From: Fistulifera solaris | Taxonomy: Eukaryota > Bacillariophyta > Bacillariophyceae > Naviculales > Stauroneidaceae | Length of the DNA: 64,000 bases | Direction: 5' to 3' | Assembly (NCBI GenBank): GCA_030295235.1 | Contig: AP026139.1 | Span: forward strand, 372,001 to 436,000 | Part shown: positions 6,951 through 64,000 of the stretch, one piece after another | Layout: every line of letters starts with the position of its first letter | Numbering within the stretch: position 1 is the first letter of the stretch | Notes under the pieces: generated by a model | Seen by the model: only the letters and a program-made list of their open reading frames with translations | Told to the model about the DNA's origin: nothing | Databases searched by the model: none | Made by a program: the position numbers and the translations under genes

Positions 6951-8655
6951 GTATCAATTATTTGGTGTACAACGCTCATACGGGACAGAAATGGTAAAGA
7001 AATGCGAAATGCAGCTGTGTCGGTTGAACCCTTCACTAGCGTATGTAAAAACACAGGTTATGAGCTCTAAAAAGTGGCAAAAACAAGTAGTGACTGCTCT
7101 AAAGCCCTTAAAGACTGAATACCGATGCCCATGTGAGTGAGAAACAAGCTAGGGCAGTCACGATTTCTCTGATAAAAAAATCCACATTTTGTCATCATAA
7201 GTGTCCTGAGTTGTTTTGACGTACAATGAATGGTGATGGTAGTATAGTTGAGTGATAGTGTGCTCCTTTTCGAGAACTTTGTCAACACGTAGTTGAGTGA
7301 AGCCTAATAAAGAATCAGGCCACGTCCTACCTTCCCAAGTTGGAGGAGCACGAATGGTTCCGCTTTGCCGGGAGCTCGGATAAGCATACTCGAGGATCAA
7401 ACTAGTGAAATGCTCAGACGAGAACGGACGCAACCACATGCGTCTGGATAAGAATGTCCCCACTTTACTGACAATACATGAGCAAGTCAACCTGATGCTT
7501 GAACGACTGGTTTACTCAACATTCCATCAATTGAGAAGATCAAGGGCGTAAAGTCCATTCATCGAAGCTTGCAAGCCTCTTTGTATTTTGTTGGTTTTGC
7601 TTTTATCATCTGGGCAAATGCTACTTGTGGGTCCTTGCTAACGCATCGACGTGGCGCTCTAGTGTGGTTGTCGGTGCCGGTTCGGCCGGTGTCGGAGTAC
7701 ATGCAGGCACCGCTTCCTCCCCACGTGGAGAAAAGGGCAGTGTTTGGTTGTCTTCATCAAGAAGAGAAAACAGATGACCTTTGAGAAGCTGAGTAGCATA
7801 TCTACTGGTCACATCAAAGGCGTGGCCCACTGCCGCGGACCATTGATTGTATCTTCGCGAAGCTAAAACAAAAACTGACATCCACTAGCAACCGTTATTC
7901 CATTGATGACAAAGGCTTCTTCTTTGCCTTACAAAAGTTATCTTTTTCTCGAAGCCAGCCGCTTTTGAGCTTATCACAATTTGTTTCGAATGAATAGCAA
8001 ATACTTAGGGGGCGAGGGAGGGGTGGTCCGTCTTCGCGGAGAGACTCCCCGTAACAGCGTCTCTTATTTCCTCTTGACGCCAAGTAAGACTTGTTGTAGC
8101 TGCAACCACTTCCATGGTTGATTGTTTTATTACGTGCATTTTTCTCACTCGTCGATCAAAAGGTCCATCTCGTGCGGTTTTTGAGAAATCCAAAAAAAAG
8201 GCGGGAGAAAAATCTTAACAGTCATACACACACAAAATGCGCACCGCCAGTACCATCTCTGTATGCAACCGCGACATCCCCTGTTCCAGCGACCAAGTGT
8301 ATGGGTGAGTTATATCATTCCCTGCTTTAAAAAGCCTTTAATACAACTTGCAAGATGAATTATTGTGAGCACTTCGCGAGCTCAGCGTGCTCCGGCAGCC
8401 AATCGACGAGGTTTGATCGATATTTTCTACACCCAGAAATCTGTCGAGACCACGCTCGCCCGATCAAGCCGTGCCAAAGGAGCTGAGAAAATAGTAACTC
8501 ATTTTTTATCGTTTCAATGCGGCCACAAGACGAGATAAGTGATGTTTTGTTGGGTTGGCCATACCTGGTAGGGATTTTTTTGTTGAGCTCAGGAAGTGCG
8601 GTCTGTCTGTACAACCGTCGACGTTATCCCCGGTTTGAATCGTTGTGATTGGTGC

Positions 8656-8681
8656 CTGGTACCGTACCGGTACTGGTATCG
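8656..8681. repeat. GGTACC-type palindrome cluster
   Basis: CTGGTACCGTACCGGTACTG and GGTATCG lie about 410 bases before the homeodomain gene. Same motif family as at 929-990. Confidence 0.6.
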
Positions 8682-9086
8682 TCCTTCGCCCGTTTTTTGT
8701 CGACCCTTTGCTTTTGCCACCTCCACGTCATCGAGTTTGGAGCATCAATCGCACTTTTTCAAATGTCTTGCCACTACTAAATGTACTTAGTTTGAAAACG
8801 TCTTAGGACTCGTGCACAGACAGTCGTTCCTCCCGCATTTTCCACCTCTGGGTTGGTTGACACCTCTACTTTTTAACCAACAGTTCTCGAACAGCGGTGC
8901 CACAGCGGATAAGAATGCAAGGCCATCACACACATCACAGCAGCAAGCCAGTAAACAAACTTGAAACGATACCATTGTCCACCATTTTCGTTACAGGGCA
9001 ACAAGCCTCACTAAAGCATAATTAGCAACTCGGCAATTCTCCAGAAATTGACCATTGACTTGGGTTTTTGATCCCCAGCGCTTTAT

Positions 9087-11131
9087 ATGTTGCAGGCGTC
9101 TGTACAGCCCCTTAATTACTCGTTACGCGAACGAAAGCCAAGTCGGTCCGACCCGTTATTCATTTACGCAGACGGAGACGAGGGAGAACTATTGTATTCA
9201 GCAGTAAACCAGAAAGTATTAAATACCGGCATGTCTGACGACTACGACGAAGATGCAAGCATCGGTGATGGCAAAGATAGAAATAAGTCTCGCCGTGAAT
9301 TGCCACCAGGAGCGGTGGCGGCTTTAAAAGCATGGCTGTTATCACCAGAACATTTCTCGCATCCGTATCCCACCCCGCAGGACCAGGCTATGCTCATGCA
9401 GAAGACAGGGATTGATAAAAAGCAACTTAAGAATTGGTTCACAAACGCGCGAAGGCGAATATGGAAACCCATGTTGAAGAAGCAAATTGAGTCGGGACAA
9501 CTATCTGCTAATCCTTCGGGGGTTGTACCAGGACTCATGCTTTCGACTATTCCCGGTGCTCCGATGGCAGTCAATCCTGCGTTAGATAATCCGCATTCTG
9601 TACAGGCGATACGTGCTCATTACCAACAGGCGTCAAAGCAGCAAGAGGCTAATTTGGAACAACAACAAGTAAGTGGAAGCGTGTTTCTCTTATGACTCTG
9701 TATGAATAATCCGTCTTAACTCATTTCCTTTGGCTTTCAGGCGGTACCTGTCGACTCATACGGTAATCCCGTCTATTCTTCGGAGCAAGCGCCACAGTAC
9801 TACTCATCCCAACAGATGACATCCGATGGACTCGGACACTTGTCCACGCTGACATCGGTGAGCTCTCTTGGGAATCTCCGTAGACAGTCATCAAACGTTC
9901 AGCTCAGTAAAACAGACAGTCATGCCGTATTGATGGAACTTTTGCCAGGGATCAAGATCTTGTACGACAAGCTACGGAGTCGGCTCGATTGAAAGCTGAG
10001 GCAAAACAACAAATGGCTTTAGGTGGGCAAGCGTCAAACGGCACAACGCAGTCACAAGTATCAAGTCAGCACCCAATGAAAGCCCCTTCATCTTTAGGCT
10101 CTTCAAGTGGTTTGTTGGGAGGAGCTCTTCAAGGGGTGCCCTCAATGAACTCGTGGCCGCATTTCTCAAGTATCACCTCATTGAACAATCTTGGAACTTT
10201 ACCGGGCGTGAAGAGCATCACAAGTCTAAGCGGTACAGATCTTGCAAGCAAAGGGGAAATAAACAAGAATGGCAATTTAGCTCAAGTGAAGAGCATGGAA
10301 TCCTTTGGAAAGAACGACTCTTATGCGTTCTTGGAGGTTTTCTTCGGCGACCGTTCAAGCAATAGTTCTGCTAATCTGAACTCGTTTGGTAGCTTGTCAA
10401 ATCTGGCGAAGTTTAGACAGGTTGGAGACGAGGACAACGAAATTGGTTTATCTCTCGAAGATGAGTCACCATCGCAACCATTAAAGAAAGAGTTGTCCAC
10501 TGCTGCGCTACCCGCTCCTTTGGTATCTTTGTCTCAGGATTCGTCAGCTAGCATGATGGATTCAGGGACACTAAAACGTGCTTATGACGATGCATTAGCT
10601 GCTAGGGGGCTCATGTCAGTCAGTAGAAGTAGTGAAAATCTGACAGATCTTGTGCTTCCTGAAAAGATTCAACGTACTTTGTCACAGGAATTCATCAACA
10701 AGGAACAGATGTTTTCTCGTTCAACACCTTCAAGTGCACTGGCAAAGAATAGTATAGCACAGCAGCCGTATTCTGGTCAGCATTCTGTAGAGCTGGATGT
10801 TGGTTCGTCGAAACAGTGCTCGCCTTCATGTGACTCGTCTGACACGGGGGGACACGTCCAGGTTCCTACTACCACGAAATGTGCGCTTTGCATGCAAACT
10901 TGTGTTGACACTCAGCTTCGTCCATGCGGTCATATGTTCCACGAGAGATGTTTGAAGCCGAGCCTTCAAGCGCCGCGAGGTCCGCCGAGATGCCCTATTG
11001 ATGATATTCCGATGCATTCAGCCGTGTTGGCTGTGCCCACCGAGGACTTTCCCACGCAACCCGACCAATCTACATGGACTTACACCCACATGCAACCAGT
11101 ATCGTCAGTGACCGACACGAACGGTCTTTGA
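9087..11131 (+). CDS. TALE homeodomain protein with C-terminal RING-like zinc finger
   Basis: A probable DNA-binding regulator of about 657 residues. The homeodomain lies at roughly residues 70-132: it has the three-residue loop extension of the TALE class (HPYPTPQDQ) and the recognition helix WFTNARRRIWKP. The middle is Ser/Gln-rich with repeated SLGNL-like and SLSNL blocks. Near the C-terminus (about 10870-11010) sits a finger with CALC, then PCGHMFHERC, then CPID, matching a RING layout with Asp as last ligand. An intron at 9669-9740 joins LEQQQ to AVPVDSYG in phase 0. At a run of four T (9940-9943) the frame steps by one; five T would give MELFARDQDLVRQATESARL, a clear heptad-like helix, so an indel is likelier than an intron. 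The start ATG at 9087 is the first in frame, but a preceding acceptor-like TTGCAG leaves an upstream exon possible. Confidence 0.85.
9669..9740 (+). other. Intron in the homeodomain gene
   Basis: GTAAGT donor after a CAA codon and a GGCTTTCAG acceptor; 72 bases, phase 0. Confidence 0.85.
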
Positions 11132-49928: not shown

Positions 49929-52003
49929 ATGATTAGTAATCCGCAAGATGACGAGTTACCCAAGAAAATGACGAGGAGTCCTTCTCGACAATCGCAAGCC
50001 ACCAATATACCTCTCGGCATACGAGCGAATCTGCAAATTTCTTTGCATCATAATGAAAATAATGACGACAACGACGACGACGACAACGATCCGAAGAACG
50101 ATGATGATAATGATGATAATGATGATCAACAGCCACTATTGTTATCGACAAATGTACCCGTACGACCACGAAGACGTCGTAGACGAAGGAATCATCATCC
50201 ACTATTACCGATGGAAGATCCTCCGTCATCGGCTGATTGGAGTCGGCGGATACCGTGGAACTGTTTGCGTCTGATCGGGAGACTGGTGGTATGGACCATC
50301 ATTTTGAGCTTGGTACTTGCCGTCGTTTGGCATTCGTACGAATTGCACAAACACAAGTACGTACCCGTCTACTACTAGAGAGAAAGAAAGACAGAGACTA
50401 ATAATGCCTTTTTTCTTTCATGTCTTTTTCGTTCTCACACCTCTTGTTCTTCTTCTTTTGCCAGAACGGAACCCATCAAAATTGCCTGGTTCAGTGCCGG
50501 AGCCTTTGTCTTACTCACATTCCCCATTGCCATGTACGGTATCATTATGCATTTGTCGCATTACAACCAACCGCTCACACAAATGTACATTGTCCGCATC
50601 TTGTGGATGGTCCCCATTTATTCGATTGAATCCTGGTTGGCGATGCGCTTTCATGAACACGCCATCTATATTGAGACGTTACGTGACTTTTACGAATCCT
50701 ACGTGCTCTATTCGTTCCTCCAATTTTTAATTCAAGTTTTGGGAGGAGAAGAATCTCTTATATTATTGCTCAAAGACAAATCACCGACCCGGGGATTTCA
50801 TATGTGGGGTTTACAGTTCTGTTTAAAACCGTGGATTATGGGACAACCGGTCCGTAAAACGGTCGGTCGATCGGTCAAACGCGTCCATTGGATGTCTCCT
50901 TTCTATAAACGATGCAAATTTGGAGTCTTGCAATATGTTTTACTCAAATTCCTTTCGGCGATTGTGGTCTTGTTGTTGGAATGGAAAGGTCGTTACAAAG
51001 AAGGAGACTTTTCCTGGTCCAGTGGCTATCTCTATATTTGTATTGTCACGAATTTGTCTCAATGCTGGGCTCTTTATTGCATGATTTTCTTTTATTATGC
51101 CACAAAAATGAATTGGCACCGATCCGGCCCGTGGGAAAATTTTTGTCCGTGAAGGCCTTGGTCTTTTTCACGTGGTGGCAATCGGTCGTTTTGGCGATAC
51201 TGTATCAGTGGGGAATGATCCCGGAACAGTTGGTGAATTTGGAACAAAACTATACGGAAGAAGATGCGGCCAAGGGAATTCAAGATTATTTGATATGCAT
51301 CGAAATGTTTGCGGCGGCATTGGTCCACAGCTTTGTCTTTCCGCATACCGAGTATTTGTCGCACGCTGTCCGGGCCCGGAATCGCGCATTACAACGGAAT
51401 CATCAGGGGGAGGACTCTCATCCGACGGGGAAATGGAAATCGCGACGATTGGGTCGAAGCAAATTTCGTCCTCAATCGTATTCGAGAAATTGGGTCAAAG
51501 ACGATGCCAGTAAGTCGTCGAACGGCATTGAATTGGCATCCTTTGAATCCGCGGTGGATGCCCGGTCGATTGAGACATGGGAAGACTCCTCGATGTGGCA
51601 AAATATACAACCCCAACAGGAAGAACCTCGTTCACGAACCTGCAGTTTGGAGGATCCTTGGGAATTTTCGCCGCATCAGGAAATGGACGTTCCTCGGGCG
51701 GAAGCACTGTCACCCGTGCGGGACGATTCACACCAAGTGGACGATGATGATTCGGCCAGTGAAGGCGACGATGAATACACCAGTAGTGAAGGAGATGACG
51801 GTGATGAACCGGAAAAGACTGGCTTTATTCGGGCGTTGATTGATTCGGCGATTCCGCGTGATCTCGGAGACAGTACACTGGGCATTGTGAAAGGTGATTA
51901 TCATGTCGAGAAGAAGACACTACTCAGTGTCGCCGCTACATCCGATCAATACGATCTTTTTGCAATGAAGAGACTACTACCGCGCAAAGAAATCCCGCCG
52001 TGA
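49929..52003 (+). CDS. TMEM184/DUF300 (OSTalpha-like) membrane protein, copy 1
   Basis: A seven-pass membrane protein of about 655 residues. DUF300 proteins are related to the organic solute transporter alpha and, in plants, to vacuolar LAZ1. The first 90 residues are Asp/Asn- and then Arg-rich; membrane segments follow (LVVWTIILSLVLAVVW, IAWFSAGAFVLLTFPIAM and others) with hallmarks VRILWMVPIYSIESWLA, YETYVLY-like FYESYVLYSFLQFLIQVLGG and KFGVLQYVLLKF. The long tail is acidic and ends with GIVKGDYHVEKKTLL and SDQYDLF. The intron 50357-50464 joins LHKHK to TEPIKIAWF. The frame steps at A5 51104-51108; six A give ATKNELAPIRPVGKF. It is followed by a paralogue on the same strand. Confidence 0.88.
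50357..50464 (+). other. Intron in TMEM184-like copy 1
   Basis: GTACGT donor and CTTTTGCCAG acceptor, 108 bases, phase 2, at the same codon as in the second copy. Confidence 0.85.
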
Positions 52004-52632: not shown

Positions 52633-54801
52633 ATGAGTGAAGCATTTCGTGTTAGGGAGAACTTTGACGAGAGTCGAAACAGCAATAGTAGCTTGACATC
52701 ACAAATCGACTCGACAACATCGAGTCCCATTCATCCTACAGCAATAAACTCCGACGAACGATCTGAATTATCGCAACAAGATGACAGTCAAGATGCTGAT
52801 GAAGAGACAGTACCGTTGACGTCGCAAGGTCCTTTATTAGAGAGTCAGCCCGCGACCCTCGATCCCCATCCCGTGATACGCTCGCGGAGTAAAAGTGCTA
52901 ATAACCAACGAAAGCGTCCAAAACGAAGACGAGCAAAAGATGCTGCTTCGGAATCACAAAAAGGATCCAAGTCTTGGATGCGCACGTGTTTATTGTGGTT
53001 TTGTCGAAATACTCGAGCGGTGCAGTCGACTCTTTCTTGTATGAACCTCTTGGCCCGTTTGCTGTTCTGGTCCTCTATGTTGGCGTCCGTTTTGGGAGTG
53101 TTTTGGTATTCGTATGAGCTCTACAATCATGGGTAAGTTTCACCGACAACAACACGTAGTAGTACTCAGGTTCCTACTGACTCATGTTTGGTTCAGAACG
53201 GAACCCCATTTGATTGCCTGGTTCAGTGCCGGTGCTTTTGTGTTACTCGGATTCCCGATATCAATGTACGGTATTGTGACACATCTGGCCAATTATAACC
53301 AACCGGATACGCAAATGTATGTTGTACGGATCCTGTGGATGGTTCCCATTTATTCGATTGAATCGTGGTTGGCGATGCGTTTTCACAAACAAGCCATCTA
53401 CATTGAGACGCTACGAGACTTTTACGAGTCTTATGTTCTCTATTCGTTTCTCCAATTCTTGATTCAAGTATTAGGCGGAGAAGAAGCGCTCGTATTGATG
53501 TTAAAAGATAAATCACCAACCCGAGGGTATCACATGTGGGGGTTGCAGTGGTGTGTGAAGCCTTGGATTATGGGTCAGCCGATTCGCAGGCCGTCCTTCA
53601 CACAAAGCGATCGAAACAACGGAACGAAACCTATACGTTGGGTCTCCCCCTTTTCATGCGCTGTAAATTGGGGGTTTTGCAGTATGTTTTGCTCAAGTTC
53701 CTCTGTGCTGTATCCGTCCTCATACTCGAATGGAAGGGCCTTTACCAGGATGGCGATTTCTCATGGCATTACGGCTACCTTTACATTTGCATCGTCACGA
53801 ATCTTTCTCAATGTTGGGCCCTTTATTGCTTGATTTTGTTTTATTTCGCCACCAAGAATGAGCTAGCGCCCATTCGGCCGGTCGGGAAATTTATGAGTGT
53901 CAAAGCATTGGTGTTTTTTACTTGGTGGCAATCTGTCATGATCGCTATTTTCGATCAGGCTGGGATGATACCGGAGCAGCTCGTAAATGTGGAGCAGGAT
54001 TGGACTACGGAAGATGTGGCAAAAGGATTTCAAGATTACTTGATTTGCATTGAAATGTTTATTGCTGCAGTGGTGCACTCATTTGTATTTCCGCACACTG
54101 AATACTCTCCCGACGCTGTCGTCGCCCGTCAGCAGGCCTCACAAGGCCACCACTCCGATTTGTCTCCAACGGGAAACGGTATCAGGAGATTTCGACGACG
54201 ATTGGGGCGCAACAAATTGTTTCCGGCGCAATACCATCGCATTCATCCTTACAAAGATAGTATCGGTAAGATATCGCCTGCACATTCAGGTTCTATGGTA
54301 GAAATGGCATCTCTCGGCTCTTCATCACCTCATGCGCTAGAAAGGGTGGAGGACCACATTCCTTGGCAAACGTTTCAACCGCAACAAGTCAATGGTTACA
54401 CTCAATACGTGGGGGATGAGGCTGATGCCCCGCCGATAGAAGCCGATCAGATGGACATAAATAATGGTTTGGGAAGAAAAGTACACGAGTGGTCAGCAAT
54501 TCCCGGTATTGTTGAATACAGCGATGACGAAGAAAATAATCCCTTAGATGACTCTAGCATAGATGACGAAGGAGAGAATAGCGATTCGCATGACTCACCG
54601 ATTGCCCGCCATAAACGTGGATTTGTTCGGGCGCTTCTCGAATCCGCTATTCCCACCGATCTAGGCAGTAGTACTATGGGAATCGTCAAAGGTGATTATC
54701 ACGTTGAAAAGAAGACTCTGCTTCATGTTGCAGCAGCGTCGGATCAGTACGATCTGTTCAACAAGCTGCGACGGAATACGCAAAAGACGACGAGCTCATG
54801 A
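52633..54801 (+). CDS. TMEM184/DUF300 (OSTalpha-like) membrane protein, copy 2
   Basis: About 701 residues, paralogous to the gene just upstream. The membrane core is closely similar (RILWMVPIYSIESWLAMRFH, ETLRDFYESYVLYSFLQF, KALVFFTWWQSV), while the first 130 residues (MSEAFRVRENFDESRNSNSS, with RKRPKRRRAKD) and the mid-tail differ. The tail ends with the shared FVRALLESAIPTDLG and GIVKGDYHVEKKTLL. The intron 53133-53196 is at the same position and phase as in copy 1 but shorter. The frame steps at TTTT 53651-53654; five T give WVSPFFMRCKLGVLQY. Codon usage differs from copy 1, so the duplication is old. Confidence 0.88.
53133..53196 (+). other. Intron in TMEM184-like copy 2
   Basis: GTAAGT donor and TTGGTTCAG acceptor, 64 bases, phase 2. 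Confidence 0.87.
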
Positions 54802-54904: not shown

Positions 54905-56915
54905 CTACGAAGACGAGGTATGGTGTTCTTCGTCAACGCCATGGACATATTGACCCTCACGCTGAGAAAAATTCTGATCTGTAATAAAAGGAGGGTGCGT
55001 AGGGTAGGCTGCTGTAGGTGGAAGAACCATACGTTGACTCATCATAAACTGTGCCTGCCATACGCTTTGCGCCGAGGGTCCTTTTATTTTGACAATTCTT
55101 GATCGAGTTCCTGGTACGAATTCGCCTCGTTGGCTCGCTCTGATGCGAGTTCCTGACAGGTTCTCCAGTTCCGTGAGCGTACTGCCCCCGCGGCCAAGAA
55201 TGGAACCTATCATCGAGTCTGGTACGAGTAATTGAACGCTGAAAACTCCCGGCGCCACCAACGCTGGCGGCTGAGGTACGAATGCTTCGCTATAACCTTG
55301 GGTTGGCGCAGGGCGGATGGGCGGTGACAAGCTCATCGACTGTTCAAATTGCAACGCAAGTAGCTCAGGAGCTGATGTACTGTGTGATACCGTACGGCTT
55401 ACAGACGAGGAAGCATCTAATGGGCCTTGAGGCTGCGGAAGCAAGTGAAGTTGTTGGTTTAAACTGCTTGGAGTAGTAACGGGCAGCCCCGAGCTTGGTA
55501 AGTAAGAAGCTTGTTGAGTCCTGTAGCTTCCAAGAAAATCAGAGGTCGGAAGGTGACCAAATGGAAGCCGCTGATTGAGCATGATCCCTGGCAAATCGGG
55601 GGACGAAGAAATTCGCCTAGGTACACTTGCAGTCTGAGACAAAAGATTAACTTCAGGTGCGGCGCTCCAGTTGGTCGAATCGGTCGCGAGTATTCGATTT
55701 TGATTTGAAGGAATAGGTAGAAGTACCGGCTGCAATTGTCCTCCATACGAGTCGGGGACAGCTTTCGTGTAGCTTGTCGTCATGTTGGCATACCGACAAA
55801 TATCAGGATGCGCAACCATACCGTCCAAAAATCAAATAGACACAGCTTAGACACGACTCCAAGGACTGACCAGTGATCGTAACGATGCGTTCCGAGGTGT
55901 TCAGCATCATGGACGATAAAGTGTAGCCACCAGCATTGTCGACGGCATCTTTCGCCGACAATCGAACAGACGAAACACCCGTGCTTTCCTCCATGAATTT
56001 AATGTTCGATCCGGATTTTCCGATTATCATTCCACAACTTGACGCAGGGACGAGTAATCGCACGACGAAGTCGAACACTGGTGTTGTTCCTCTTTGGCGC
56101 TGCAGTTGCCACGCTACATGTTGGGAATGCTGCTGTTCCTGTAGCATGTGAAGTCTGCCTAGAAGCAATTTAAGCGCAGTTTTACAGTTATCGGGCTCCC
56201 CTTGGACCAGACAAACACGATCTTGAGTACCTGGATAGTAATCCCCAGTCTGGCTCAGCTTAATCCTCGTTGATGATTGCTTCTGAAACTCCGAAATCGT
56301 TTGCCCCGATCGCCCAATGATTGAACCAGCGACATTGTTTGAGACCAGCAACTTGAATGCCGCTGCGCAGGTTGCTGAATTTGGTCTTGCGTATTGATCG
56401 GCTTGATGGGATGGAGACGAAGATTGAGTAGGAGCCACAATGTCTCGGTAGCTCGTTGGTTGAGAAAATGAGGTAAAGTCGGATGGCGAGCTTGCCGACC
56501 AACTGGACACTCCTTCTTCTGTAAAGTGACTAGCGTGATGTTGAGGTTGAGATGTATGAGTATGAGATGAATGAGTGTGTGGCGTGTGAGAGGCTAGCCC
56601 CTCTCTTGCAAAGTCAGGCTCTTCTTCGCTTGTACTCAAGTGAGGCAGCGATGAATTTCCTAAACTTGTTGGTGTTGTTGTGGTTCCGGTTGTAGGAACC
56701 GATGAATGTTCGGGCGAGGGCGATTTCGATGTGCTGATTGGCCCCACTTCACATTTAATGGTTGCTGTGCCCTCAGGAGCTAGTAACGCTATATTTGTAG
56801 TTGTGTGGGAAAGGGGCTGACTGTGTGAGGGAGCTGTGCTGTGAGAGCGAATGTCGTGTGCTAGGGATGATGTGAGGTGCTGATTGTGTGACGAATTTTG
56901 AGATGTAGAATTTTC
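54905..56915 (-). CDS. Three-KH RNA-binding protein, NOVA/PCBP-like, 5' end unresolved
   Basis: At least 670 residues with three KH domains of the poly(C)-binding/NOVA kind: FKLLVSNNVAGSIIGRSGQT, VRLLVPASSCGMIIGKSGSN and VQLLVPDSMIGSILGRGGST, each with an intact GxxG loop. Between KH2 and KH3 lies a Ser/Pro/Gln-rich stretch, and the N-terminal part is His/Ser/Thr-rich (HTPHTHSSHTHTSQPQHH). The frame steps at A5 55827-55831 (plus strand); one base fewer joins VYLIL to DGMVAHPDICRY. The reading frame is open upstream to 56921 but has no ATG there; TTAAG before 56915 may be a splice acceptor, with the first exon farther right, perhaps the short open frame near 57400-57444 (MAKEAVASQRRSIVAG followed by a GTAAGA donor). 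Confidence 0.8.
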
Positions 56916-60023: not shown

Positions 60024-63000
60024 ATGTCGGCATTGCCAAAGAAAATACCGCGAAAGCTATTCAGCTATGACAACGTCGAACCTTCGCCTGCGACAGAGCC
60101 CCCGAGACCGACGTCCGAAGCCGCTCAGAATTATATTCCCAACTCGTATCGAAATTCCAAGTTGTCGCATGCCAGCATCCAAGCCATTCGTGACAAAAGC
60201 ACGCTCTCGCCTGATTTGCGAAGCCAGATCGACTATCAGCAGAGTGAAGGATTGTATCCGGCTTCGTTTCCGCACTATGTGAGAGGACGGGACAGTTTGC
60301 GCAAACACATCACCCAGCTCTTCACCAGCCGAATCGCCATTTATGACGGTGCGATGGGAACGATGATCCAAAATTATGCCAAGAAGAACAAACTGGAAGA
60401 GGACGAGTACCGCGGAGAACGTTTCAAGGACTGGAAGTGCAACGTGAAAGGTAACAATGATATGCTGAGCATCACTCAGCCGCACATCATTCAGGGAATC
60501 TACCGCCAGTACCTCGAAGAGGGAGGATCAGACTTGATCGGCACCAATACGTTCTCGTCAACGACCATCGCCATGGCCGACTACGAGATGGAGGCGTACG
60601 CATATGAATTGAACTACTGGGGTGCCCGTTTGGCCCGCGAGGTTTGTGACGAAGTGACCGCCAGAGACCCCGCCAAGCCGCGTTTCGTGGTTGGTGCGAT
60701 TGGCCCTACGAACCGCACTGGTTCGATTTCTCCGTCTGTTGAAGACCCGTCCGCCCGGAACGTGACATTTGACGAGTTGGTGGAGACGTATTTCGAGCAG
60801 GTGGTCGGGTTGATGGACGGCGGTGCCGACATTTTGATGGTAGAGACCATCTTCGACACGCTGAATGCCAAGGCTGCGTTATATGCGATTGGGGAGTACT
60901 TGGAGTTCAGCGGCTTGGATATTCCTGTCTTTGTGTCTGGTACTCTCGTTGATCAGTCGGGCCGCACGCTTTCGGGTCAAACCGGCGAGGCGTTCTACGC
61001 CTCGATCCGCCACGCCAAGCCGATGTGCGTGGGATTGAACTGCGCCCTTGGTGCCCAACACATGACCCCGTTTGTGGAACGATTGGCCGGTTGCGTCGAG
61101 TGCTTTATGCACGTTTGTAAGTATATAGAAATGGGAATAGTGCAGGCCTAAACGATTTTCGCTTGTCTGACTCGTTTGGACTTCTTCTCATTCAGACTCT
61201 AACGCCGGTCTTCCGAATGCAATGGGTGGATATGACGACTCTCCCGAAACAATGGCGGAACAGAATCGGTTGTTCTTTGAGAATGGTTGGTTAAATATGG
61301 TCGGCGGTTGTTGTGGGTCTACCCCGCCTCACATCAGGGCTATTCGTGAGGTCTCGGAGGGCTACGAACCGCGAAAGCTTCCGGATGTCGGTCGTCCCAA
61401 GATGTGGCTGTCGGGCCTGGAGGACATGAAGGTAGAGGACGTGCACAACCACCTCGGTCTTCCGTTCTTGAATGTTGGCGAGCGCTGCAACATCGCGGGC
61501 TCGATCAAGTTCAAGAAGTTGATGATGGCGGGGGACTACGGTGCTGCGATGGACATTGCCAAGCAGCAGGTCGAGGACGGTGCGCACGTAATTGACATTA
61601 ACGTTGACGACGGCATGCTGGATGGTCTGGCAGCTATGCAAAAGTTTGTCAAGATTGCAGTGACGGAGCCTGAGGTAGCGAAAGTCCCGTTCATGTTGGA
61701 TGCCTCGAAGTTCGAGATTGTGTTGGCCGGCTTGAAGTGGTGCCAGGGCAAGCCCATCGTGAACTCTATTTCGCTGAAAGTCGGCGAAGAGATGTTTATT
61801 GAGCACGCGACGCTGCTGAAGAAACATGGTGCGGCTGTTGTTGTGATGGCGTTCGACGAGGAAGGTCAGGCTGCGACAGAATCGGAGAAGGTCCGCATTT
61901 GCAAGCGTTCTTACGATATCTTGGTGAACAAGGTCAAGTTCCCACCTGAGGACATTATTTTCGATCCGAATGTGTTAACGATTGGTACTGGCATGGAAGA
62001 GCACGCGAACTACGGCGTTGATTTCATTAATGCCTGCAAAACAATTAAGGAAGAGTGTCCGTACGTGAAGATCAGCGGTGGTATCTCGAATCTTTCGTTC
62101 GGCTTCCGTGGTGTGACGAAGATTCGGGAGTCGATTCACGCCGTGTTTCTGCACCACGCCATTTTGGAATCCGGCATGGATGTCGGTATCGTCAACGCAA
62201 AAGAGATGCTTGCGATTGACGCGCTGGAACCTGACATGCTTGAATTATGCGAGAATCTAGTTTTCAATAAGACTGAGGACGCTACGGACGAAATGTTGGA
62301 ACGTACCGCCTACGAACGAGCCGTTATTGATGCCCAAAAGAAAGGACTACCTCCTCCCCGAAAGCCTCGAGGCAAGGTTGTGAACAAACCTAGAATGATG
62401 TTCAGCTATGACAACGTCGAACCTTCGCCTGCGACAGAGCCCCCGAGACCGACGTCCGAAGCCGCTCAGAATTATATTCCCAACTCGTATCGAAATTCCA
62501 AGTTGTCGCATGCCAGCATCCAAGCCATTCGTGACAAAAGCACGCTCTCGCCTGATTTGCGAAGCCAGATCGACTATCAGCAGAGTGAAGGATTGTATCC
62601 GGCTTCGTTTCCGCACTATGTGAGAGGACGGGACAGTTTGCGCAAACACATCACCCAGCTCTTCACCAGCCGAATCGCCATTTATGACGGTGCGATGGGA
62701 ACGATGATCCAAAATTATGCCAAGAAGAACAAACTGGAAGAGGACGAGTACCGCGGAGAACGTTTCAAGGACTGGAAGTGCAACGTGAAAGGTAACAATG
62801 ATATGCTGAGCATCACTCAGCCGCACATCATTCAGGGAATCTACCGCCAGTACCTCGAAGAGGGAGGATCAGACTTGATCGGCACCAATACGTTCTCGTC
62901 AACGACCATCGCCATGGCCGACTACGAGATGGAGGCGTACGCATATGAATTGAACTACTGGGGTGCCCGTTTGGCCCGCGAGGTTTGTGACGAAGTGACC

Positions 63001-64000
63001 GCCAGAGACCCCGCCAAGCCGCGTTTCGTGGTTGGTGCGATTGGCCCTACGAACCGCACTGGTTCGATTTCTCCGTCTGTTGAAGACCCGTCCGCCCGGA
63101 ACGTGACATTTGACGAGTTGGTGGAGACGTATTTCGAGCAGGTGGTCGGGTTGATGGACGGCGGTGCCGACATTTTGATGGTAGAGACCATCTTCGACAC
63201 GCTGAATGCCAAGGCTGCGTTATATGCGATTGGGGAGTACTTGGAGTTCAGCGGCTTGGATATTCCTGTCTTTGTGTCTGGTACTCTCGTTGATCAGTCG
63301 GGCCGCACGCTTTCGGGTCAAACCGGCGAGGCGTTCTACGCCTCGATCCGCCACGCCAAGCCGATGTGCGTGGGATTGAACTGCGCCCTTGGTGCCCAAC
63401 ACATGACCCCGTTTGTGGAACGATTGGCCGGTTGCGTCGAGTGCTTTATGCACGTTTGTAAGTATATAGAAATGGGAATAGTGCAGGCCTAAACGATTTT
63501 CGCTTGTCTGACTCGTTTGGACTTCTTCTCATTCAGACTCTAACGCCGGTCTTCCGAATGCAATGGGTGGATATGACGACTCTCCCGAAACAATGGCGGA
63601 ACAGAATCGGTTGTTCTTTGAGAATGGTTGGTTAAATATGGTCGGCGGTTGTTGTGGGTCTACCCCGCCTCACATCAGGGCTATTCGTGAGGTCTCGGAG
63701 GGCTACGAACCGCGAAAGCTTCCGGATGTCGGTCGTCCCAAGATGTGGCTGTCGGGCCTGGAGGACATGAAGGTAGAGGACGTGCACAACCACCTCGGTC
63801 TTCCGTTCTTGAATGTTGGCGAGCGCTGCAACATCGCGGGCTCGATCAAGTTCAAGAAGTTGATGATGGCGGGGGACTACGGTGCTGCGATGGACATTGC
63901 CAAGCAGCAGGTCGAGGACGGTGCGCACGTAATTGACATTAACGTTGACGACGGCATGCTGGATGGTCTGACAGCTATGCAAAAGTTTGTCAAGATTGCA
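60024..64000 (+). CDS. metH: Cobalamin-dependent methionine synthase with repeated front half, runs off right edge
   Basis: MetH moves a methyl group from 5-methyltetrahydrofolate to homocysteine through cobalamin. The start is MSALPKKIPRKLFSYDN at 60024. Residues about 80-370 form the homocysteine domain, with GAMGTMIQ near its start and zinc ligands in GLNCALG and GGCCGSTPP; the next 300 form the pterin domain (NVGERCNIAGS, DINVDDGMLDG, ISNLSFGFRG). Introns at 61117-61195 and 63458-63536 restore VYSNAGLPNAMGGYD. At 62401, where the cobalamin cap domain should begin, the frame runs instead into a second copy of residues from FSYDNVEPS on, so as read the protein would be Hcy-pterin-Hcy-pterin before any B12 domain. 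No indel breaks the frame. The B12 and activation domains must lie beyond 64000. MTRR, its reactivating partner, is at 13.6 kb. Confidence 0.9.
60060..62400 (+). repeat. Tandem repeat in metH, unit 1 (2341 bp)
   Basis: The unit begins TTCAGCTATGACAACG and ends at CCTAGAATGATG, containing the homocysteine domain, its intron and the pterin domain. It is followed at once by a second copy. The base before each copy differs (A at 60059, G at 62400), fixing the left edge. Confidence 0.95.
61117..61195 (+). other. Intron in metH, unit 1
   Basis: GTAAGT donor and TCATTCAG acceptor, 79 bases, phase 1; repeated at 63458-63536 in unit 2. Confidence 0.88.
62401..64000 (+). repeat. Tandem repeat in metH, unit 2 (1600 bp visible)
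   Basis: Matches unit 1 at a constant offset of 2341. The only difference I found is G at 61630 against A at 63971 (Ala to Thr in the pterin domain). The right end lies outside the window, so the copy number is unknown. Confidence 0.95.
63458..63536 (+). other. Intron in metH, unit 2
   Basis: Identical copy of the intron at 61117-61195, 2341 bases downstream. Confidence 0.88.

Follow-up and report, generated by a model that had tools for sequence, protein, structure and literature searches.

A tandem in-frame duplication within METH probably gives the methionine synthase of the diatom Fistulifera solaris two substrate modules and one B12 module

Methionine synthase is the standard case of a protein in which one B12 domain moves between substrate modules. 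The canonical B12-dependent enzyme (PDB entries 4ccz, 9ssp, and 8ssc; bacterial MetH) has one body composed of a homocysteine (Hcy) domain and a pterin/folate (Fol) domain, located ahead of the Cap and B12-binding (Cob) domains. The closest system to the one analyzed here is the METH gene of the diatom Phaeodactylum tricornutum, reportedly described by Bromke and Hesse. In gene model 23399 (Phatr2) of that species, a 2,280-nt intron lies in frame with both flanking exons and encodes a MetH domain and a pterin-binding domain, probably as the result of a duplication (PMC4523565, section 11). According to the same section, ESTs exist for this "intron," and the two MetH domains were left for experimental verification. 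Solved structures of methionine synthase show Hcy and Fol moving together as one rigid body, with a mobile linker between Fol and Cap (PMC10567725). Fistulifera solaris, an allodiploid diatom, carries homoeologous chromosomes (PMC13276009, PMC5935921) and belongs to a different order of the Bacillariophyceae from P. tricornutum (NCBI taxonomy).

We analyzed a 64,000-nt stretch of the genome of the oil-rich diatom F. solaris (51.7 Mb in 61 contigs), located at G000:C29:372001-436000 and referred to below as the window, together with the sequence beyond it where METH continues. The genome contains exactly two copies, on C38 and C39, of a guide target published for the two homoeologous apt genes of F. 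solaris, and a primer published for one of these genes has a single exact match, on C39 (sequences from PMC13276009). Gene models were drawn from the sequence alone, using GT-AG introns and open frames. An in-frame stop codon is present immediately 5′ of the METH start codon on C29. The gene contains a direct repeat with a start-to-start spacing of 2,341; both units begin with TTCAGCTATGAC, at positions 60060 and 62401, and the part of unit 2 located in the window is identical to unit 1 at 1,599/1,600 bases, the sole difference being a G-to-A change at 63971. The layout agrees with the initial annotation, which had claimed a 2,341-bp in-frame tandem repeat with a 79-base intron in each unit (Table 1). 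Exon 2 comprises 2,262 bases, a multiple of three, and includes no stop codon, so the reading frame is indeed kept across the junction at 62400/62401. The seam is located past the first pterin domain and ahead of the B12 domains, which bears out the claim that the break falls just before the cobalamin domain. In the spliced models of both C29 and the second locus described below, the seam follows residue 766 and each unit spans 754 codons.

Table 1. Features of the METH tandem in the window (contig C29; positions are those of the window unless prefixed by the contig)
Feature	Position	Strand	Source or remark
METH exon 1: start codon, 12 unit-1-specific first codons, N-terminal extension, most of Hcy domain 1	60024..61116	+	
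Unit 1: 2,341 bases (754 codons plus 79-base intron)	60060..62400	+	
First homocysteine domain (S-methyl_trans), exon 1 part	~60339-61094	+	Pfam
Intron 1, GT-AG, 79 bases, identical to intron 2	61117..61195	+	Sequence-only model
Exon 2: end of Hcy 1, pterin/folate domain 1, unit-1 linker, seam, N-terminal extension 2, most of Hcy 2	61196..63457	+	
First pterin-binding (Fol) domain, PF00809, full length	61477..62196	+	Pfam
Unit-1-specific end: Pro/Lys-rich stretch without homogenisation, orthologous between homoeologs, presumed linker	62202..62400	+	Site patterns counted to 62381
Unit 2, part in window; nominal end C29:436741	62401..64000	+	Homogenised with unit 1 to ~C29:436542
Second homocysteine domain, exon 2 part	62680..63435	+	Pfam
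Intron 2, 79 bases, identical to intron 1	63458..63536	+	Sequence-only model
Exon 3, start; past the window: Fol 2, Cap and Cob B12-binding domains, then intron 3 and activation domain (to ~C29:438600)	63537..64000	+	

A family search of the same genome recovered a second METH on contig C27. When 30 kb of C29 was compared with 40 kb of C27, 28.5 kb proved collinear, at 87% identity, and the tandem is present in both homoeologs, with a spacing of 2,341 on C29 and 2,342 on C27, the same seam, and an exon 2 of equal length. This second locus bears directly on the possibility, considered a strong rival explanation in the initial annotation, that two haplotypes or a collapsed repeat were joined end to end during assembly. 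An error of this kind would be compatible with the near identity of the C29 units over the 1,600 bases compared and with the frame breaks that the assembly shows elsewhere in METH. It is contradicted by the homoeologous locus with the same seam, by the diverged end of unit 1, by the 29 synonymous and 4 amino-acid differences (691 codons) between the C27 units, and by the similar arrangement, with ESTs, in P. tricornutum (PMC4523565). On the first three of these grounds, an assembly artefact was rejected as extremely improbable. The doubling looks real and old rather than an assembly mistake, and both parental gene copies carry it.

The domain content of the two genes was compared to that of known methionine synthases. 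The Hcy domain (PF02574) scores over the Pfam cut-off in both units of both homoeologs, and in exons 1 and 2 of C29; 7 of its 14 matches in the genome, on C1, C2, C13, and C14, belong to other genes. Similarly, the pterin-binding domain (PF00809) is matched over positions 1 to 244 of 244 in all four units, and its further matches, on C45 and C46, lie in separate genes. The B12-binding Cob domain (PF02310) has one match on C27, one on C29, and none elsewhere in the genome. Within the pieces scanned, the Cap domain (PF02607) occurs once per homoeolog, in exon 3, and the activation domain (PF02965) gives a strong match once per homoeolog, with a change of the assembled frame upstream of the domain in both. 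Thus, on a genome-wide count, each METH homoeolog has two Hcy domains, two pterin domains, and one PF02310 domain. Among solved structures, methionine synthase chains are the best relatives, with 4ccz first, and the canonical enzyme shares both the Hcy/Fol sequence and the domain set with METH; whereas the canonical enzyme has one Hcy:Fol body before Cap:Cob, two bodies are found in both F. solaris homoeologs. The gene models therefore encode, in both homoeologs, the two substrate modules ahead of one B12 module that had been claimed from the C29 sequence. Twelve motifs derived from this gene's own translation, GLNC and GGCC among them, are each found once in each of the four units and are therefore intact in unit 1. 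We take the GLNC and GGCC motifs of the Hcy domain to be its zinc-ligand motifs.

The concerted evolution of tandem repeats by gene conversion is a general process. To compare the four METH units (two per homoeolog), they were aligned and site patterns were counted site by site. The unit body (window positions 60087 to 62201) contains 123 concerted sites, at which both units of a homoeolog share one base and both units of its counterpart share another, and no orthologous or crossed ones; a further 23 sites differ only between the C27 units and 1 only between the C29 units. The intron is homogenised too, with identical copies within C29 and copies of 80 and 81 bases in the two units of C27. Within the first 27 bases (60060 to 60086), 7 sites differ between the C27 units. 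The pattern is reversed at the unit-1 end (62202 to 62381), where 54 orthologous sites and 1 concerted site are accompanied by 14 other, 11 C27-only, and 8 C29-only sites. In C29, the pattern switches near C29:434201, paired with 436542 (window equivalents 62201 and 64542), and a gapped BLAST match between the units (98.2%) extends to 434306/436647; over the final 130 columns of the alignment of all four units, the C29 units differ at 54/116 aligned bases. The head-to-tail repeat annotated initially is thus near-identical in its body but is not uniform to its end. At the protein level, the unit-1 end matches the unit-2 end at 23/45 residues in each homoeolog, while between homoeologs the unit-1 ends are alike at 39/45 residues and the unit-2 ends at 42/45. 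The synonymous distance between units is 0.002 in C29 and 0.059 in C27, and that between homoeologs is 0.29.

With paralogues more alike than orthologues and with shared ends that lack homogenisation, these site patterns fit a tandem homogenised by gene conversion. The simplest account is that the duplication took place before the parental lineages separated and was followed by conversion within each gene, which would be very recent in C29 and older in C27. Consensus polishing could add to the near identity of the C29 units but would be unable to produce the C27 pattern. The grouping of the bodies within homoeologs, at 123 concerted sites, could also be explained without conversion if each parental lineage had undergone its own tandem duplication. 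Recent duplications, however, would leave the unit-1 and unit-2 ends alike, and the homoeologs have the seam and the unit-1 end in common (39/45 residues, versus 23/45 between unit 1 and unit 2). Independent duplications were rejected because of the shared seam and unit-1 end, and we consider them very improbable. An old duplication with later conversion resembles other concerted tandem repeats in its homogenised bodies and in its sharp borders where the copies have diverged; it differs from tandem-repeat conversion in general in that the converted tract is a module within one enzyme gene, intron included.

Selection on the units was estimated from codon changes. The main count (671 codons) starts at codon 21 of each unit and omits the unit-1 end, and an extended count restores the first 20 codons (691 codons). 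Over the 671 codons, 25 synonymous and 0 nonsynonymous changes separate the C27 units, an outcome with a chance of 3.5e-17 under neutrality. All 4 amino-acid differences of the extended count fall in the first 20 codons, and the corresponding chance, with 29 synonymous changes, is 1.4e-15. The C29 units, with 1 synonymous and 1 amino-acid change, are uninformative on selection. Between homoeologs, dN/dS is 0.018 to 0.020 for the unit body, 0.034 for the activation-domain exon, 0.051 for the unit-2 end plus the Cap stretch (140 codons), and 0.26 for the unit-1 end (8 and 8 changes, 63 codons). On these values, the unit-1 end appears to be the least constrained of the stretches measured, as expected of a linker. 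Because the C27 bodies differ by synonymous changes only, both units look to be under purifying selection, which favors translation of both. This argument has less force for unit 1 as a catalytic component, because unit 1 may undergo conversion from a constrained partner.

The strongest rival to production of the doubled enzyme is skipping of exon 2, with the donor of intron 1 joined to the acceptor of intron 2. The mature product would then be a single-module METH with the extra unit located within a long alternative intron, or both forms would be made. The sequences would allow it: in each homoeolog the 2,262-base exon 2 has matching donor and acceptor sequences on both sides, and the skipped product has an open frame of 1,057 codons in C29 and, up to a break in the assembled frame, of 848 codons in C27. 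The P. tricornutum model likewise treats its 2,280-nt in-frame unit as an intron, although ESTs are reported for that "intron" (PMC4523565). In F. solaris, the near acceptor is 79 to 81 bases from the donor and the distant one about 2.4 kb, and the excess of synonymous changes that separates the C27 units speaks for translation of both. Weighing these points, we regard skipping of exon 2 as unlikely, and we infer that the doubled METH protein is probably translated.

We consider it probable that this gene is a genuine METH whose Hcy:Fol substrate body, with its N-terminal extension, was duplicated in frame before the two parental lineages split, and that gene conversion has since held the two bodies nearly identical within each gene. 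Exon 2 would be included in the mRNA, and the likely product is one chain of an estimated ~2,100 residues, arranged as Hcy-Fol, tether, Hcy-Fol, Cap-Cob, and activation domain. A single doubled chain is likely because the seam falls between Fol and Cap, the place of the mobile linker in the canonical enzyme. Since Hcy:Fol is rigid and the Fol:Cap linker mobile in the solved enzyme, the duplication would have copied one rigid body and joined it where flexibility was already tolerated. Unit 2 would perform canonical catalysis with the single B12 domain, and unit 1 may serve the same B12 domain as a second working substrate station or as a substrate sensor.

The protein encoded by exon 2 was also folded, giving a model of medium quality (mean pLDDT of 67.4, pTM of 0.45). 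Residues 390 to 440, around the seam at 401/402, are of low confidence. Equally low are residues 26 to 79, which lie in the part of the Hcy domain that can be aligned to solved structures. The alignment used (27/77 usable trimmed Hcy fragments and 23/78 usable Fol fragments) is empty at the linker, and its Hcy rows fill a mean of 81% of the Hcy columns and 17% of the Fol columns. Since confidence is equally low in a part that can be aligned to solved structures, and since no alignment rows cover the linker, the model does not serve as evidence for a disordered tether.

The doubled protein could be made with unit 1 in a passive or regulatory role, such as a folate or homocysteine buffer or a dimer contact, kept intact chiefly through conversion from unit 2. 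It can be reasoned that one Cob domain is unable to serve two stations simultaneously and that conversion would pass the constraint on unit 2 on to unit 1, and the dN/dS of the unit-1 end (0.26) exceeds those of the body and of the unit-2 end plus Cap. Set against this are the 12 motifs intact in unit 1 and the C27 bodies without an amino-acid difference in 671 codons. A passive unit 1 is, on balance, a less probable reading, although a weightier one than loss of exon 2 by splicing. If unit 1 is instead a working station or sensor, a lineage of pennate diatoms may make a methionine synthase whose one B12 domain is served by a pair of tethered Hcy:Fol bodies, the second functional since before the parental split, with a mechanism (occupancy, sensing, or reactivation) unlike that of the single-module enzymes characterised so far; we propose this only tentatively.

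Bacterial metH loci, the best 80 of at least 585 relatives (among at least 594 stretches), were scanned for domain architecture at an E value of 1e-10. The order Hcy-Fol-Hcy-Fol was found in 0/80 of these loci, and the same scan recovered the doubled order in C29. Among the best 80, 74 loci are Hcy-Fol-Cob, 3 are Hcy-Fol only, 2 are Fol-Cob only, and 1 has an extra Hcy match downstream of Cob; several loci stop near the match. No relatives were found in the viral contigs scanned.

The initial annotation had held the arrangement to be known in no methionine synthase, but it was noticed earlier in P. tricornutum (PMC4523565). The F. solaris gene has the same type of in-frame duplication of Hcy and pterin domains of about 2.28 kb (2,262 coding nt, compared with 2,280 nt). 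The P. tricornutum doubling is modeled as an intron, and the section that describes it gives no evidence on conversion or selection (PMC4523565). That section contains the one description of a doubled METH that we found in the literature (PMC4523565). The doubling itself is therefore not wholly new; what is new here is a second diatom, the conversion signature, and the evidence on selection. From their size and content, we infer that the two duplications may be orthologous, in which case the doubling would be older still than the split of the F. solaris parental lineages. The F. solaris genome has PF01717 (METE-type) matches on C34 and C35. Because of this METE-type gene, METH may not be essential to the cell. 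Both kinds of gene are present in P. tricornutum as well (PMC4523565).

These results suggest that an entire module may be concealed as an "intron" in diatom METH gene models, which would have consequences for studies of expression and B12 physiology based on them. The enzyme is also relevant to how much B12 phytoplankton require. A natural form with two substrate bodies for each B12 domain, preserved intact in the two subgenomes of an allodiploid, offers a ready test of what limits the enzyme: travel of the B12 domain, substrate capture, or reactivation.

Past the window, both homoeologs show a change of the METH frame in the stretch that separates the Cob domain from the activation domain, close to a run of C. 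These changes could be explained by consensus errors, an unrecognised intron, or recoding. Gross homopolymer collapse was rejected as their cause, since run lengths in 118 kb of the F. solaris genome fall off smoothly, with no C or G run above 6. The C27 gene has an additional frame change between the Cap and Cob domains, and at the very C-terminus of METH the frame differs between the homoeologs.

The reading frame of METH, the cobalamin-dependent methionine synthase gene, shifts close to a run of four cytosines (CCCC) between the B12-binding (Cob) and activation domains, a feature common to the homoeologous copies on contigs C29 and C27. The activation-domain exon is strongly conserved despite the preceding frame change, and the frames of the two copies are discordant near C29:438583. 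The METH frame changes could represent assembly error, a hidden intron, or recoding. In a bacterial metH locus from a Bacteroidales MAG (L055), an extra homocysteine-methyltransferase match, which may belong to a distinct gene, was located at 8265-9149, 3′ of the Cob domain.

The two METE-type matches elsewhere in the genome are probably a homoeologous pair. Given their presence, F. solaris may be a facultative B12 user.

The window also carries a tandem pair of Ostalpha-family genes, distinct from the METH repeat, whose members share about 73% identity over 0.9 kb and match a similar tandem pair on C27. Each gene is split over two overlapping open frames, which suggests the presence of introns.

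Coordinates of METH frame changes and additional protein-family matches
Feature	Location	Remarks
METH frame change, Cob/activation-domain interval	C29:437570-437600	beyond window; C27 counterpart 462660-462690
Additional METH frame change	C27, near 462064-462075	
METE-type match (PF01717)	C34, about 145567-146603	
METE-type match (PF01717)	C35, about 161565-162594	
Organic solute transporter Ostalpha family (PF03619)	window 50462-51378 and 53194-54128	tandem gene pair
KH-domain matches (PF00013)	window 54905-56747	minus strand; two adjoining open frames
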